Below are positions 1 to 6,123 of a stretch of DNA of 64,000 bases, piece after piece. Position numbers and translations under genes: made by a program. This DNA is from Bacteroidales bacterium. Its GTDB lineage: Bacteria; Bacteroidota; Bacteroidia; Bacteroidales; F082. The notes beneath the pieces are model-generated. The model was not told the DNA's origin. It saw nothing but the letters and a program-made list of their open reading frames with translations, and ran no database searches. The stretch is taken from contig JAKSMX010000006.1 of the NCBI GenBank assembly GCA_024400305.1, positions 49,826 to 113,825 on the forward strand. Direction: 5' to 3'. Positions within the stretch are counted from its first letter, which is position 1. Every line of letters begins with the position of its first letter.

Positions 1-660
1 AGATTTATACGAACTATGGGCTTTAATGACTTTGCAATAGTCTGTTAAGGACTTAGATACTGAGTCCCACATTGGAAACTCCTCTTTCTTTCGTTTTTTT
101 AGTTCCTTATTAAGTTGAACAACATATTCGTTGATAATTGTCTCGAATTCCTTAGTTGTTAGGAAATTTACAACAGCACACTTCTGTGCCGAGTTACAAA
201 AAATGGTTCTTGCTGCTGTAGTCTTTCCCTTACCTGATGGAATAACAGTTTCAGGAGCTCCGGTCAACGCACGAAGGAATACACTCTTGCCTGTGCTTAC
301 AGGACCTGTAATACAAACCTCTACCTCATTCTTTGAAATCTTGTTCGCTATTGCTTCAAAATAACCTTTTGGTCCATAATTATCTCCATTTTTTATTCCT
401 ACGTTGTTGGAAACGAACTCAATAAAAGATTTGACTTTGTTTTCAATACTTTTTCCGTTTTCATCAGCAGACGTCCATACTTCATTAAATTCCGGGAATT
501 TTTCGAGTAGTACACACCAATTTTTACCGTTAATTAACGATTTGAGTTTTTGTGAAAATGCTATTACGTCTTTAACCTCGCCCCAATAGGTGTTGTACCT
601 AGGAGCGATTTCACCTTGCCTATGGGCAACGATTGACGAGATTGTGTCAGCAATTGGCAT
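1..660 (-). CDS. Dynamin-like GTPase, N-terminal part (runs off the left edge)
   Basis: The minus strand is open from an ATG at 660 to the window edge, giving 220 residues without a stop. Residues 119-126 read GPVSTGKS, a P-loop of the GxxSxGKS form seen in dynamin-family GTPases. It is followed by LRALTG and then PSGKGKTTAART, where the threonines fit the switch-I/G2 position. Residues 1-110 before the G domain look helical. The remaining G motifs and the stalk lie outside the window. Bacterial dynamin-like proteins remodel membranes; that role is inferred here. The gene points the same way as the UpxY, M48 and small membrane genes beyond the insertion sequence, so it may once have been part of their operon. 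The IS end lies only 20 bases before the ATG. Another P-loop GTPase family is possible. Confidence 0.6.
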   Translation of the reverse strand, partial: MPIADTISSIVAHRQGEIAPRYNTYWGEVKDVIAFSQKLKSLINGKNWCVLLEKFPEFNEVWTSADENGKSIENKVKSFIEFVSNNVGIKNGDNYGPKGYFEAIANKISKNEVEVCITGPVSTGKSVFLRALTGAPETVIPSGKGKTTAARTIFCNSAQKCAVVNFLTTKEFETIINEYVVQLNKELKKRKKEEFPMWDSVSKSLTDYCKVIKAHSSYKS

Positions 661-680
661 AATATATAATTTTTAATGTA

Positions 681-2027
681 TGTTCTATTAATTCATAAAT
701 TCGGGTGGAAGCCGTTCCGCAAGAGTAAATCTTTCGGAATCAGTCGCTCTTCAGAGGACTTCGGCTTTCGATTGCGTTCGTTTATCCACTCATTGGCATG
801 CTGTTTTTGACGATTTGACACGTATGGGCACAGTTATCCCTTGCAGGTGATAAGCTGTGGCTGGTAAATGTTGATCTGTAAATATCTGAATATGTTATAT
901 GCGAGGTTGGTCAGAGCGTTGGCTGCTTTGGCTCGCACCATTCCGATGCTGCGGACAAGCGAGCCGTTCATCGCTCCCTCGATGAAGCCGAAGATGTGCT
1001 CGACGCTGCACCTGTCCTTGGACTTGATGCGGTTGTTCCGCTTCTGCTCGTCGGTCAGAGGTCTGTTGCGATGTCCCTTCTCACAGATGACGGGATTCAT
1101 TCCGCATTCTTTCACGATGTCATCCTTGGATTCATAACCTGCATCAAGGAACAAATCCTGTCCTTTATCTTTCTCTTCAATGAGGGGTTTGATAACATTT
1201 GAATCATGTACGCTTGCGTCTGTTGTGTGATACTTCTCTATGAGTTTTGTCTTCTTGTCTGCTTTGACGTGATTCTTGTAACCGTAGTGATTCTCACCGC
1301 GTTTCTTCGTCCAGCGAGCATCAATATCCTTGTGTGACTTCTTGGCCAGTTTGTGTTTCTTCTCCTTCTCGGAGTCGCCATCCTCGGGATTCCACAGGCC
1401 TTTGCCGTTGCCGACTTTGATTTGTTTGTTCTCCTCCCTGGTGTTTCTCTGCTTTGGGGCTTCAACAAATGTAGCATCAATTATCTTACCCTCGTTGAAT
1501 GAAAGTCCCTTGTCGTCAAGGAAGGTGCGGAACTCATCAAACAGGCGGTCGAAGGTGCCGTCCTCAGCAAGCTTGTTCTTGCATGCCCAAACAGTCTTCT
1601 CGTCAGGAACCTCTGCCACTGTATGAATGCCAAGGAACTGGCGGAAGCTGGTACGGTCTATAATCTGATACTGTATCTGGTGGTCGCCCAAACCATAGTA
1701 ACGCTGAAGGAATATGACCTTGAACATAAGGACGACATCTATCTGCGGACGTCCCGCAAGAGTCTTGCAGTCCTTCCTGACCAGAGCCTCTTCAAGTGCG
1801 GGACGGAACATCTCAAAGTCGACCAGTGCGGCGAGCTGCTCAAGGGGGTTGCCCATCCGGGAGAGTGCCTCGATGGTGAACTCCTCCTCGAACAGGTTCT
1901 CGCCCATCGGTTTGCGGTATATAGTAGTCTTCTGCATGTTTCTGTACGATTTCTGCTGCAAAGATACGACTTTTTCCTGAAATATCATACTAAATATCTA
2001 ATTATTAGCAAGTTAATTTATAGAACA
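681..2027 (-). mobile_element. IS5-family insertion sequence (about 1.35 kb)
   Basis: A single transposase gene is flanked by imperfect 15-bp inverted repeats at 681-695 and 2013-2027; 13 of 15 bases match, starting TGTTCTAT. The size suits IS5-family elements. No target-site duplication is visible, so the exact outer ends are uncertain. The stretch 698-833 between the left end and the transposase stop holds an open frame of about 40 codons on the minus strand with no ATG, possibly degenerate. The element sits immediately upstream of the dynamin-like gene. Confidence 0.7.
834..1988 (-). CDS. IS5-family DDE transposase
   Basis: A 384-residue transposase that appears intact. The N-terminal part (about 35-130) has the DUF772-type fold sequence (LAGRPQIDVVLMFKVIFLQR) typical of IS5 elements. 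The catalytic triad is visible as D171 (IIDATFV), D282 (FLDAGYES) and E330 (SVEHIFGF). A lysine-rich insert around 185-245 is usual for this group. The ATG at 1988 gives the longest frame, but Met18 (MQKTT) is an equally good start. The protein cuts and rejoins the element's ends during transposition; no frameshift is seen, so the element may still be active. Confidence 0.9.
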   Translation of the reverse strand: MIFQEKVVSLQQKSYRNMQKTTIYRKPMGENLFEEEFTIEALSRMGNPLEQLAALVDFEMFRPALEEALVRKDCKTLAGRPQIDVVLMFKVIFLQRYYGLGDHQIQYQIIDRTSFRQFLGIHTVAEVPDEKTVWACKNKLAEDGTFDRLFDEFRTFLDDKGLSFNEGKIIDATFVEAPKQRNTREENKQIKVGNGKGLWNPEDGDSEKEKKHKLAKKSHKDIDARWTKKRGENHYGYKNHVKADKKTKLIEKYHTTDASVHDSNVIKPLIEEKDKGQDLFLDAGYESKDDIVKECGMNPVICEKGHRNRPLTDEQKRNNRIKSKDRCSVEHIFGFIEGAMNGSLVRSIGMVRAKAANALTNLAYNIFRYLQINIYQPQLITCKG

Positions 2028-2244
2028 GCCCTAAAATAATATTTCTTAATATATGACAATAAATCGGTTATTCATCTGATAGCCGTGAAAAAAAAGTATT
2101 AGTAACTCAGGTATCCTCCACTAATCTAATCATAAACTGAGGGAAAAGCGTGACTTTCGCCATCCTGATATAACTTTTTCAAAAAATATCATTCCTTGCT
2201 TCCATAGGTATCCCCCCCTCGAGTCATTGCCGCTAACCCCATCC

Positions 2245-2481
2245 TCAATTCTCCTTCACAAAATAACATATCGCCCCCGCAATCACTATAATCCCGATAA
2301 CAACCCATACCCAGACAGGAATAGAAGCAAGGAAGCTCTTATTCTGGACCGCAGCACGAGCAGCATCATCTACATAAGGGACAGCTTTCTTCGCCACCTT
2401 CGCAATTTCTTCCAGTTGGCGGCCACTTGGCGCAAGTGCGTATAACTGTGATACAGAGCCTGACAATGAAAGTAAAAACAT
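2245..2481 (-). CDS. Small membrane protein of unknown function
   Basis: A 78-residue protein with a hydrophobic N-terminus (MFLLSLSGSVSQLYAL), which may be a signal sequence, a central amphipathic stretch (residues 20-45, rich in Ala, Lys and Glu) and one strong membrane segment at about 52-74 (IPVWVWVVIGIIVIAGAICY), ending in KEN. It lies 107 bases downstream of the sigma-like/M48 gene in the same direction, and is probably the last gene of that group before the insertion sequence. No family was recognised. A membrane partner or substrate of the protease is only a guess. Confidence 0.55.
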   Translation of the reverse strand: MFLLSLSGSVSQLYALAPSGRQLEEIAKVAKKAVPYVDDAARAAVQNKSFLASIPVWVWVVIGIIVIAGAICYFVKEN

Positions 2482-2588
2482 AACATTACTAATTTAAAGT
2501 TTCATACACACTTTGATTTCATTCTCTTTGTACATCCCTGCATAACAGAAGGTCAGTCGATATCTGCCAATCTTTTTCTAATACGTTT

Positions 2589-3455
2589 TTACCTGAGATA
2601 ACAATGCGTCAGGAACCTGTTGTATTCTCCGCTCTCCATCCACTTCAGCAATTCCGCCGAACGCATCACAGTCCAAGGATGTGTTTCGTCAGCAATGGAA
2701 ATGAACTTGACCACTTTGTTCATTCCATCATAATCAAGCATCTTGAAATCCCGCGCCTGCTGGATGAATGACTCGGTTTTGATACTATTGAACTCTTTCA
2801 ATGGAAGACCAGCCATCTTGACGAAAGCGCGAATCATTGCTTCATGATTCTGGCAGCCAAGAAGTCCTGCACGGTCGGCGGTGAATTCCGACATTCGATT
2901 CCAATAATAAAGTGCATACTGCAACCCGCCAGCAAGGAGCGTCCCTCCCGGAATAGAATCAATTATTATGTCAATCATCTGAGCCATCATGTGATACAAC
3001 ATGTGATTGCTCTTTATGTGTCCCAGCTCGTGCGATACGACGAACATGATTTCGTCATCGTCACAAAGGTCAATCCAACCCGAACCAAGAATGATGACAG
3101 GGCGCTCTGCGCCAATGGTACAGGCATTTATGGAGTAATCCCAATTAATCCTCAACTCCGGGATCTTTTCCACGAACAGATGACCGGCGACCACCCCTAA
3201 CCAACTGCCAAATGACGATTTCCATCTGAACGAACGAAGAGCGCACCAGTCATTGGCCCGCAGGTGGATGAACAATTCAGCCTGTAGCTGCTCGAGATAA
3301 AAAAGGTTATCGTAATATTTACGGCAAAGCTTCTTCAGAAGTGGGACGTAACGCACATAGATGATGTAGAGGACGGCCTCCTGATTTGCATTCTCCAAAG
3401 CCAGCCGCACCAGTTCCCTGTCTTCGATGTCCTTATAATCAGCAGATAATTTCAT
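2589..3455 (-). CDS. Sigma-70 region-2-like domain fused to an M48 metallopeptidase
   Basis: From the ATG at 3455 the protein has 288 residues; a TTG at 3467 would add four. Residues 10-95 read like ECF sigma region 2: an ELVRLALENANQEAV helix, a tyrosine-rich LCRKYY helix, then LQAELFIHL and SFRWKSSFGSWLGVVA, which match the -10 recognition helix pattern (compare QExF..L, F.geSSF.tWL). No sigma region 4 follows. From about residue 97 the protein becomes an M48 (Ste24/HtpX-like) zinc peptidase: HELGH at 142-146 supplies the two zinc histidines and the catalytic Glu, and E190 in SEFTADRAG supplies the third ligand. No clear membrane anchor is seen, unlike HtpX. It begins 8 bases after the antiterminator stop, so the two are probably translated together. 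The fusion frame is intact across the join. Confidence 0.75.
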   Translation of the reverse strand: MKLSADYKDIEDRELVRLALENANQEAVLYIIYVRYVPLLKKLCRKYYDNLFYLEQLQAELFIHLRANDWCALRSFRWKSSFGSWLGVVAGHLFVEKIPELRINWDYSINACTIGAERPVIILGSGWIDLCDDDEIMFVVSHELGHIKSNHMLYHMMAQMIDIIIDSIPGGTLLAGGLQYALYYWNRMSEFTADRAGLLGCQNHEAMIRAFVKMAGLPLKEFNSIKTESFIQQARDFKMLDYDGMNKVVKFISIADETHPWTVMRSAELLKWMESGEYNRFLTHCYLR

Positions 3456-3463
3456 AAACCTTA

Positions 3464-4072
3464 TCAATTAATCTTTTCAACCTCACTCTGATTGATTCTC
3501 ACCTTGGCGAACCCCAGTGAATCAATCGCTATCACTATATATGTCCCTTGCGGATCAACGATTATATTCCCTTCAATTCCGGCCAGCGTCCCTGTCGTCA
3601 CCCTCACCGCATCTCCCAGACGGAATCGAACGTTTTCTATCGTGACAGGAGTTGTCGCTTTGGAAAGCATCTCCTTAAACCGTTGCATCTGTTTGTCAGG
3701 TATGATCGCCACAGGATAACTTCCAGCCCTTCCTTTGGTGTGATCTGACATGAATTTCTTCACATAGCCGAAGTTCACAGCTTCCTTCCGTTTCTTCTCC
3801 GTGCATTTCATAAACAGCACGGCTGGCAGCAGCACACGGTCAACATCTTTCTTCCTGCCGTTCCTCCAAACTCTCTTTTCGCGCTGTGTCGGGACATAGC
3901 ATTCGTATGCGTCTCCCATCCTCGCGTCCATGAGCCTTTCCGCCACGGAACGCTCGGAATTGTTATTGACGACAGCCACATACCAGTGGGTTTCCTCCAC
4001 GCCTACGGCGCCGTCAACGACATCCGCTGACGCAACTTCATCAACCTCGGTTCGCTCCACAGCACGTTCCAT
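3464..4072 (-). CDS. UpxY-family transcription antiterminator (NusG paralogue)
   Basis: A 202-residue NusG-type protein. After an acidic extension of about 27 residues comes the NGN domain (HWYVAVVNNNSERSVAERL, then CYVPTQREKRVWRNGRKK and VLLPAVLFMKC), and the C-terminal KOW domain begins near LGDAVRVTTGTLAGIEGNI. In Bacteroides, UpxY proteins are encoded first in long operons (capsules) and let RNA polymerase read through early terminators of their own operon. Here no polysaccharide genes follow; the next gene is the sigma-like/M48 fusion 8 bases away. It is therefore likely to drive this accessory operon. A TAnnTTTGC promoter lies 58 bases upstream. Confidence 0.85.
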   Translation of the reverse strand: MERAVERTEVDEVASADVVDGAVGVEETHWYVAVVNNNSERSVAERLMDARMGDAYECYVPTQREKRVWRNGRKKDVDRVLLPAVLFMKCTEKKRKEAVNFGYVKKFMSDHTKGRAGSYPVAIIPDKQMQRFKEMLSKATTPVTIENVRFRLGDAVRVTTGTLAGIEGNIIVDPQGTYIVIAIDSLGFAKVRINQSEVEKIN

Positions 4073-4129
4073 CTTCTTGTGTTTATGTGCTTATATCATA
4101 CCTTGCGCTTTTATTTCAAAAAACGCCTT

Positions 4130-4138
4130 GCAAATTTA
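4130..4138 (-). promoter_or_regulatory. -7 promoter element TAAATTTGC for the UpxY operon
   Basis: On the minus strand this reads TAAATTTGC, a match to the Bacteroidetes -7 consensus TAnnTTTG. It lies 58 bases before the antiterminator ATG, leaving a short leader in which an antitermination signal could act. Confidence 0.55.
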
Positions 4139-4270
4139 TCACATACATTTCAAAATACCAATCAAATTTTCTTTGAATTTGCTCTGGATTATCAAACATA
4201 AATAGCACTTATTGCGATTGTAAATAATTTATAATCAAAACAAATAAATATTTACAAATCTTTTTTCGTT

Positions 4271-4591
4271 CTATTTCTTTGAACACATTCTGTACCTACA
4301 CCCGCTGCACACGTCTCCGCTGACAAGCGCTTTCCTGCTTACTTTCACCATGATATATACATCCTCCTCACCGTCACCTTCCTCATCATTTGTAAAATGC
4401 CTGAAAAAATCATAGTCCAACGCCACAGAGACGCGCTGCAGCAACGCGACATCTATTGACTCGCGCTTCAGAATATCATACGCATTGCCCGACGAAACGC
4501 TTATTTTCGCGGCAAAGTCCCTGATTGACAGCCCGAGTTCTTTTCTCCTATTGTCAATCAATTCTCCGATGTTGATCTTGTCACAATTCAT
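4271..4591 (-). CDS. XRE-like helix-turn-helix DNA-binding protein
   Basis: The ATG at 4591 gives 106 residues; the frame extends upstream, but those codons give unlikely protein sequence. Residues 7-60 form a Cro/C1-type HTH: IGELIDNRRKELGLSIRDFAAKISVSSGNAYDILK, followed by a helix and LLQRVSVALDYDFFRHF. After an acidic linker (NDEEGDGEED) the C-terminal tail is basic and has three cysteines (CSGCRYRMC), a possible small metal site. Proteins of this shape are common beside accessory and mobile genes in Bacteroidetes and probably regulate a neighbouring operon. The target is unknown. Confidence 0.65.
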   Translation of the reverse strand: MNCDKINIGELIDNRRKELGLSIRDFAAKISVSSGNAYDILKRESIDVALLQRVSVALDYDFFRHFTNDEEGDGEEDVYIMVKVSRKALVSGDVCSGCRYRMCSKK

Positions 4592-4978
4592 TTCGAATAC
4601 TTTATTACAACACCAATAACACCGTAATCTGTAAATAAAAAAAGTGCGGCTCTTCCTTACTCTGCTTTCAAGGTATCGCCAAACACCCAAGTATCCAAAT
4701 AGGGAAGCCCGCACCGAAACCGGTGAGCCTTCGATCATATTTACATGGGATACTTCTTAATTTGGTGATTTTTGAAAACACCCGTAAATAGCGAACGCTA
4801 CTTTTTCATATATGTCATTTATACCGTATTACTGTTTCTTACTTCAATGTTTAAATTAACGCTGCAAATTTACGAAACATTTTCCATGATTCAACATGCT
4901 TGATGTTTTTTTATGAAACAATTAAAAAACACCTGTAAGGCATACATTTTCAGCAAGTTATCCTGTCTTCGTCTTCTT
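4592..4978 (+). other. Gene-free stretch
   Basis: No supported gene is present. The only structure noted is a 5-bp stem hairpin with an AA loop (TAGCGAACGCTA, 4789-4800), followed by a short T-run on the plus strand. No -7 promoter match was recognised for the HTH gene that starts at 4591. Confidence 0.4.
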
Positions 4979-5602
4979 TCAGACCATCCCAAACACCGAA
5001 TCCGATGCCAGCTCCCTTTCCTCGGAATAGAATGTGATATAACACGCCACCTCGTGATCCGGATTGATTTTGGTCTCAACCATGCCTGTCGTGTCGGAAC
5101 GCCGCCCGACGTTCTCGAATGTCTCCACGTTCATGTTGGTGGTGTCGATGAGAGCCATCATCGCAATGTCTTTTGATTTGGCGCTGCCATCGCCGCTATT
5201 GTCGGTCCAACTCACAATTACATTGCCGCCGTCACGGGAGAACGACACGCCCGCAGCTGCGGTGAGACTGCCGCGTCCCACCATTATCCTGTCGTAAAAA
5301 GTTTCAACACCCGACTCGTCCGCCTTGAAGGCGTTCCTGAAATTGTACTGCATCACGGCATTGTACGCCGACTTGTCTTTGGCAAACTCCACAAAACTCT
5401 TCTTTGCAAATGACTTCAGCTTCTTTGAGAAAGCCACCGCCGCCGAAAACTTCGCGCGATGAAGCATCTGACCTTCCGTCTTTGCATCGTGAAATTTCAA
5501 TGGAACGCTTTTCATGTACGGTTTCCCCTTCCACGAACTGCCAATAACAGCCCCTACTTTCCCTGAAAACGGGCCATTGATTCCATCTTTATATTTTCCC
5601 AT
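4979..5602 (-). CDS. DUF6266 family protein
   Basis: A 207-residue protein that begins GKYKDGINGPFSGKVGAVIGSSWKG, the pattern that opens DUF6266 proteins of Bacteroidetes. There is no signal peptide. The middle is rich in Lys, Ala and Phe (residues 45-90), and the C-terminal half (110-205) looks like a beta-sandwich, with strands such as NVIVSWTDNS and VACYITFYSEE. The family has no established function. It is transcribed alone from a TATTTTTGC promoter, 26 bases before its ATG. Confidence 0.7.
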   Translation of the reverse strand: MGKYKDGINGPFSGKVGAVIGSSWKGKPYMKSVPLKFHDAKTEGQMLHRAKFSAAVAFSKKLKSFAKKSFVEFAKDKSAYNAVMQYNFRNAFKADESGVETFYDRIMVGRGSLTAAAGVSFSRDGGNVIVSWTDNSGDGSAKSKDIAMMALIDTTNMNVETFENVGRRSDTTGMVETKINPDHEVACYITFYSEERELASDSVFGMV

Positions 5603-5804: not shown

Positions 5805-5898
5805 TTAATAGTAAGTTTTTAATTTGAATTTACACTAAAAACCCCGAGCCTTCACGAGACCCAGGGGAAATTATTAACACCATAAAAATCAAAAAAAG

Positions 5899-5984
5899 CG
5901 GAGAGAAAGGGATTCGAACCCTTGGAACGCATAGCGTTCAACGGTTTTCGAGACCGCCCCGATCGACCACTCCGGCATCTCTCC
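5899..5984 (-). tRNA. tRNA-Ser (anticodon CGA)
   Basis: The minus strand folds as a class II tRNA: acceptor GGAGAGA paired with TCTCTCC and discriminator G, D arm, anticodon loop CTCGAAA (CGA), a long variable arm (GAACGC with GCGTTC) and the T arm GGTTCGAATCC. CCA is not encoded. Confidence 0.95.
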
Positions 5985-6005
5985 AACGCTTTACTTCTAC
6001 AGAAT

Positions 6006-6033
6006 GAAAGCAACCCATCTTTGAGTTGCTTTC
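6006..6033 (-). terminator. Hairpin between the two tRNA-Ser genes
   Basis: GAAAGCAAC and GTTGCTTTC form a perfect 9-bp stem around a 10-base loop. It may end transcription or guide processing of a transcript carrying both tRNAs; there is no strong T-run. Confidence 0.45.
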
Positions 6034-6038
6034 CTCAG

Positions 6039-6123
6039 CGGAGACAGAGGGATTCGAACCCCCGATACATTTCTGTATAACGGTTTTCAAGACCGCCGCG
6101 ATCGACCGCTCTGCCATATCTCC
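6039..6123 (-). tRNA. tRNA-Ser (anticodon TGA)
   Basis: A class II tRNA on the minus strand: acceptor GGAGATA with TGTCTCC and discriminator G, anticodon loop CTTGAAA (TGA), variable arm, and T arm GGTTCGAATCC. CCA is not encoded. It lies 54 bases upstream of the other tRNA-Ser. Confidence 0.95.

Follow-up and report, generated by a model that had tools for sequence, protein, structure and literature searches.

ECF sigma factors are the members of the sigma-70 family that contain only regions 2 and 4, and their function requires region 4 and the linker. The gene described here is a chimera whose residues 1-97 are an ECF region 2, closest to the ECF factor of a homologous locus designated L068; in contrast to that family it lacks region 4 and the linker, and no anti-sigma-like gene stands behind it. 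The rest of the protein resembles the M48 metallopeptidases (HtpX/Ste24/LoiP-like), with the HExxH motif, the presumed third zinc ligand and the core from its first strand to the C-terminus. It differs from them in that sigma region 2 takes the place of the first 33 of 186 Pfam positions and of about 85 N-terminal residues of M48b, the second of two M48 proteins encoded in a conserved row of genes.

Among described systems, a review of non-canonical ECF factors treats SnoaL, TPR, cysteine-rich and anti-sigma extensions and ascribes to extensions an action on sigma2 and sigma4; a peptidase domain is not named as an extension in the part of that source consulted (PMC8999054). To judge from the same part, the chimera is like these proteins in joining a sigma part to a further domain, and unlike them in having lost sigma4 and in having a peptidase as the added domain. 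The GTPase/Hsp70 conflict systems form a second point of comparison (PMC7159879, Kaur et al. 2020; PMC8195603), and the consulted portion of PMC8195603 includes gene neighbourhoods in which ECF sigma factors and caspase domains occur. The likeness to the systems of PMC7159879, as far as the portion consulted goes, lies in the Hsp70 and DO-GTPase type genes found downstream in some relatives of our locus, whereas a word search of the text of PMC7159879 returns "sigma factor" and "dynamin" 0 times. Among the literature matches listed, neither a fusion of sigma region 2 to M48 nor a row of UpxY, ECF, anti-sigma-like, M48a and M48b genes was found.

Architecture of the chimeric frame

The window, meaning the whole 64-kb stretch analysed (G000:C56:49826-113825), carries the chimera as a single frame of 288 codons with its ATG at 3455, its stop at 2589-2591 and no internal stop; an in-frame TTG upstream of the ATG would give a protein of 292 aa. 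The initial annotation had placed an intact frame at 2589..3455, correctly, and the strand, which it did not give, is minus. Its domain reading, sigma region 2 followed by M48 with region 4 missing, also proved right on Pfam and NCBIfam matches and on relatives; a gene with a sigma front and a zinc-protease back is confirmed as a real feature of the window (Table 1). Neither of the two outcomes that the annotation had named as fatal to this reading was obtained.

Table 1. Features of the chimera and its neighbours, in window coordinates.
Feature	Positions	Strand	Basis
UpxY-family antiterminator, directly upstream of the chimera	3464..4072	-	NF033644, 111.2 bits, cut-off 100
Chimeric ORF, 288 aa: ECF sigma region 2 and M48 metallopeptidase, in frame	2589..3455	-	Translation, Pfam/NCBIfam, relatives
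Sigma region 2, residues 1-97, including the segment SFRWKSSFGSWLGVVA, which we take to be region 2.4-like	3165..3455	-	58% identity to L068 ECF
Join, residues 98-101 (IPEL)	3153..3164	-	Alignment of ECFs and M48b relatives
M48b peptidase, first core strand to C-terminus, residues 98-288	2592..3164	-	Alignment with M48b relatives
HELGH zinc-binding and catalytic motif, residues 142-146	3018..3032	-	Translation, alignment
E190, presumed third zinc ligand, in MSEFTADR	2886..2888	-	Translation, alignment
78-aa protein between chimera and IS; hydrophobic stretch by eye	2245..2481	-	No family match above cut-off
IS5-family transposase, between chimera and GTPase-like gene	834..1988	-	NF033581, 264.8 bits
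N-terminal part of an 828-aa dynamin/GTPase-like protein, running off the window	1..660	-	Homologues in relatives

The separate Pfam search of the sigma part that the annotation had proposed gives Sigma70_r2 on residues 33-94 at 1.5e-4 and 22.0 bits, under the cut-off of 24. NCBIfam SigX matches residues 6-90 (3e-6, 26.9 bits, far under its full-length cut-off of 194), and a search of solved structures with the single sequence returns SigW as a weak match (E 0.48). The sigma assignment is instead supplied by relatives: the sigma half is 34-58% identical to the ECF products of nine homologous loci, highest for L068. These are real ECFs, since sigma70-ECF is matched by each of the eight tested with an E value no worse than 0.01 (the L068 ECF at 35.9 bits, under the cut-off of 42.9) and a profile of eight of the nine hits ECF sigma factors of known structure (sigma-E 1or7, E 1.6e-9), spanning region 2 and extending into region 4. 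On the strength of that identity and that profile match, residues 1-97 are taken as ECF region 2 despite the sub-cut-off matches, in keeping with the annotated extent of about 95 residues; a chance likeness is excluded by identity at this level over almost the whole length. The full-length L068 ECF used as a query covers the chimera up to query residue 103, and region 2 is represented almost end to end. Region 4, which recognises the -35 element, was found by neither Pfam nor NCBIfam in the chimera, as annotated, and the residues past 97 are M48. With both region 4 and the linker gone, the protein is not expected to work as an ordinary ECF sigma factor.

Turning to the peptidase, Pfam M48 (PF01435) matches residues 107-272 at E 1.5e-17 (64.5 bits, cut-off 20.3), and H142, E143, H146 and E190 are invariant across 15 aligned sequences, comprising the chimera and 14 M48b relatives; the annotated M48 identity with HELGH and a third zinc ligand is thereby upheld, E190 being presumed to fill the latter role as in M48/HtpX. 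The match begins at profile position 34 of 186, which leaves the domain incomplete by its first 33 positions. About 85 native N-terminal M48b residues that precede what we take, from knowledge of the M48 family, to be the first core strand are absent. This segment is well conserved in the M48b family and, in the 16 relatives aligned (L077 left out), is unlike the sigma segment of the chimera. Since these residues are lost, peptidase activity is uncertain, even with the zinc site kept. The last helix of region 2 probably occupies the place of the M48b segment before the first core strand.

A conserved gene row in relatives

One scan of 84,980 species genomes, restricted to loci in which either of two heptapeptide patterns occurs exactly, gave 124 stretches, 17 of them relatives whose M48b protein is 55-74% identical to the back of the chimera (75% for the M48b of L075 in the comparison of the loci). 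The matches of these 17 loci begin at window-protein residue 85-98, and none has the sigma half. In several Bacteroidales the M48b gene ends a row that runs from a UpxY antiterminator through a full ECF sigma factor, an anti-sigma-like gene and M48a to M48b, followed by variable genes. An ECF gene lies upstream of M48b in nine of the 17 loci (L061, L062, L063, L065, L066, L067, L068, L071 and L072); all nine have M48a, and eight, L068 being the exception, have the anti-sigma-like gene. UpxY precedes the ECF gene in six of the nine (L061, L062, L063, L066, L067 and L071; not in L065, L068 and L072). The label "anti-sigma-like" rests on position behind the ECF gene and on the look of the protein, and the one such protein tested, that of L061, has no Pfam match. 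In seven of the 17 loci an ECF gene was not recognised in the DNA covered, which in one of them, L070, comprises only about 150 bases upstream; the remaining locus, L064, is cut by its contig end. The L065 locus lies on the same contig as G026:C133, with proteins 100% identical, and the G026 row reads ECF, a 121-aa anti-sigma-like protein, M48a, M48b (66% identical to window-protein residues 92-282) and a 562-aa gene that is Hsp70-like by eye.

The genes after M48b vary. Among ten downstream proteins tested, Pfam recognised Hsp70 twice in L061, DUF4407 in L062, PP2C in L067 and TIR-FGE in L069, a locus without a recognised ECF gene; DO-GTPase2 was above cut-off in one of the two L064 genes tested, and VWA-like genes were seen by eye. 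MAGs that bear the names of several genera carry the row, as does Bacteroides salyersiae DSM 18765 (L071). In L067 the ECF gene consists of two overlapping frames of 141 and 107 aa (L067:4580-5288), a split that is likely a frameshift or a programmed site between regions 2 and 4. Taken as a whole the row looks like a regulated conflict or stress module. The presence of two M48 proteins beside a sigma/anti-sigma pair suggests protease-controlled sigma release, and these M48 proteins are natural candidates for the proteases that control the pair. PADLOC gives a weak match of the L061 M48a to RmrA (18.6 bits) and none for the chimera or for the L061 M48b.

In the window, UpxY adjoins the sigma part in the same place as in the six relatives. 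Its stop lies 8 bases from the chimera ATG; the distance to the ECF start is 13, 9, 9, 15 and 12 bases in L061, L062, L063, L066 and L071, and in L067 the two frames overlap as called. Separate ECF, anti-sigma-like and M48a genes are absent from the window locus. On the downstream side, a homologue of the 828-aa protein (22-24% identity) is the first gene recognised past M48b in both L062 and L064, and another is found farther downstream in L072, so that downstream synteny extends to three of 17 loci at that level of identity. The upstream neighbour, and one downstream neighbour shared with three relatives, are in place, and the chimera occupies the spot that the ECF, anti-sigma-like, M48a and M48b genes have in relatives. 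The 828-aa gene is below cut-off for Dynamin_N and just above it for MMR_HSR1, and PADLOC gives it a weak match to LeoA (18.1 bits). Genes for DUF4407, an AAA ATPase, Hsp70 and FGE-domain proteins follow on the same strand past the window.

Several observations concern the wider surroundings. A cluster of about 40 kb (G000:C56, approximately 16250-55430, or window 1-5602 and leftward) holds TIR-like (by eye), FGE, Hsp70, AAA ATPase, DUF4407 and dynamin-like genes, and is bordered by housekeeping genes, with an RpoD-like sigma gene by eye, and by a tRNA-Ser pair at window 5898-6123. Tail repeats of the tRNA that would mark the end of an island were not found at a length of at least 15 bases in four pieces covering contig C56. 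The AAA ATPase gene of the cluster (G000:C56:41671-43515) matches PADLOC IetA at 53.6 bits. The cluster region also holds a second M48 type of 302 aa, with zinc-ribbon-like cysteines at the C-terminus by eye, followed by a 165-aa gene (L033:7013-8501, equal to G000:C56:27012-28500). By eye a like pair is present in G022, and in G026:C32 a pair occurs with a 174-aa gene between its members and a 208-aa sigma-like gene upstream.

Distribution of the fusion, the lost parts and the join

Of 99 genus genomes, 53 of which gave a match, the chimera's own is the only one with both halves in one frame. Elsewhere in the genus the front matches frames of 92-227 aa, mostly about 195 aa, the size of an ECF sigma factor, and the back matches separate M48 proteins. 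Outside its own genome the fusion was likewise not found among 395 genomes of the phylum (60 with a match), where strong M48 matches begin at residue 93 or later, or among the genomes of 60 relatives (21 with a match). Four weak matches to frames of 631-680 aa in G202, G233, G260 and G375, at 21-27% identity, do cross the join, and their proteins proved to be BlaR1-type M56 peptidases (103-131 bits) without a sigma match. Nine IMG/VR stretches matched a pattern and none was a relative, ten plasmid records match the M48 half with none covering 80% of the query, and phages gave no match to the chimera; these scans, like that of the 84,980 genomes, may leave out records of this genome or very near ones. 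A family of such fusions was therefore set aside, none having appeared in the viral, species, plasmid, phage, genus or phylum searches. The survey of other Bacteroidales genomes and their neighbours, which had been proposed as a check on the annotation, thus found no further case of the fusion in the genomes covered, and relatives that have its halves as separate genes of one row.

The missing parts were also sought in the chimera's own genome. With the L068 ECF as query, the chimera is matched over query residues 7-103 at 58% and a single further ECF gene at 30%, with no second close copy; the L068 M48a finds the chimera and two other M48 genes at 27-30% identity, with no M48a orthologue; and the L071 anti-sigma-like protein finds no copy (best E 0.55). 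Translocation of the missing parts was rejected, as these queries found no copies elsewhere in the genome.

The join can be read by aligning the L068 ECF (...GVVAGNLFIKKMPELIG), the chimera (...GVVAGHLFVEKIPELRINWDYSINACTIG) and the L068 M48b (...CKILDISNIPDLYLQWDYDINACTIG). The matching point in the L068 ECF is MPEL, and PEL is present in this one, the closest, of nine ECFs, others having for example DEL, SEL or PQM; P-(E/D)-L stands at the join point in 15 of 16 M48b relatives. The codons are CCG GAA TTG in the L068 ECF, CCG GAG TTG in the chimera and CCA GAT TTG in the L068 M48b, so that the L068 parent pair shares seven of nine bases. Between the matching join points the nine loci span 1,680-2,852 bases, six of them within 1,680-1,822.

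Origin and significance of the chimera

The chimera is very probably the product of an in-frame deletion of about 1.7 kb in an operon-like row of UpxY, ECF, anti-sigma-like, M48a, M48b and variable genes. Both parent families, their conserved order, the upstream neighbour, a downstream neighbour shared with some relatives and the failure to find copies of the lost parts elsewhere in this genome are matters of observation. The deletion itself we infer across species, the closest parents being 58% and 75% identical. In such an event the ECF gene, broken just past region 2, would have been fused to M48b from the first core strand onward, with loss of sigma region 4, the anti-sigma-like gene, M48a and about the first 85 residues of M48b. 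A route through the short shared Pro-Glu-Leu-like stretch is possible, weakly supported as PEL stands in one of nine ECFs. The outcome would be at most an M48b variant expressed from the start beside UpxY, its N-terminal helices exchanged for sigma region 2. Because the locus has neither region 4 nor an anti-sigma-like gene, no working cognate ECF sigma factor would be left and sigma control would presumably be lost there.

Whether the product has decayed was judged from conserved positions. In the sigma half, the chimera changes two of 16 columns invariant in eight ECFs (L067 left out because it is split; two of 15 with it added). When each ECF is left out in turn, L065 changes 7 of 23, L068 6 of 22 and L072 10 of 26, with 0 of 16 changed in each of the remaining five. 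In the M48 half, two of 64 invariant positions are changed, and the 16 relatives change 0-4 of 64-68. The changes in both halves thus fall inside the range of intact relatives. Relative-rate maxima are 2.25 for the sigma half (against L068, eight outgroups) and 3.57 for the M48 half (against L075 with 15 outgroups, 14 of which place more changes on the window branch); no count reaches the threshold of 3.84, and the outgroups are not independent. Decay is seen in neither the invariant-position nor the relative-rate counts. Given the few invariant changes and the absence of a significant rate excess, long neutral drift after the fusion appears unlikely. Since both halves keep their conserved residues, either the deletion took place recently or the protein remains in use; synonymous sites are saturated, and a recent deletion is therefore indistinguishable from selection. 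That both halves look constrained would be unexpected in an old, useless remnant, and to that extent it counts against reading the chimera as a deletion remnant. It is most likely an altered M48b peptidase, possibly still useful, or a recent remnant, and its gene is probably an accident of genome evolution and not a novel type of regulator.

An unlikely alternative is a fusion kept by selection, in which region 2 would recruit the peptidase to the RNA polymerase beta' clamp, or compete with sigma factors, and the peptidase would act on a transcription-linked target. Conserved residues kept in both halves with no significant rate excess, the nearly end-to-end coverage of region 2 and the adjoining UpxY, another transcription factor, are consistent with it. 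However, the fusion occurs in one genome only, loss of the intervening genes already explains its structure, and a recent deletion would appear just as conserved. The more specific form of this idea, a sigma-guided zinc protease docked on RNA polymerase through region 2, kept by selection and replacing the sigma/anti-sigma switch in one step, is improbable. The distinct regulatory arrangement proposed in the initial annotation accordingly finds no support, as the architecture is confined to one genome and the relatives have separate genes in the same order; the same applies to the suggested steering of a protease to RNA polymerase and to self-release of a sigma fragment.

An error of assembly or a chimeric read, in an organism whose gene row is intact, has a similarly slim chance of being correct. 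The assembly is in 76 contigs, and a structure observed once is suspect. Against this, the join keeps the reading frame and falls at the corresponding point ahead of the first core strand, the lost parts were not found elsewhere in the assembly, and the parents share just a short stretch there, the seven of nine bases of the L068 pair; the words used in assembly are usually longer than this stretch. Finally, that the sigma-like segment is the ordinary N-terminus of an M48 family, with no fusion at all, has practically no probability and is refuted: an aligner does pair helical portions of one N-terminus with those of the other, but the 16 M48b relatives aligned share a conserved N-terminus of another kind, and the segment is 34-58% identical to ECF sigma factors.

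The case of this chimera shows that a domain fusion seen in one genome can stem from a deletion between two genes of one row, and that synteny separates such cases. Its locus also points to a conserved Bacteroidales row with two M48 peptidases and variable Hsp70, GTPase and other genes. Should the chimera work, it would connect RNA polymerase to a protease through a link of natural origin.
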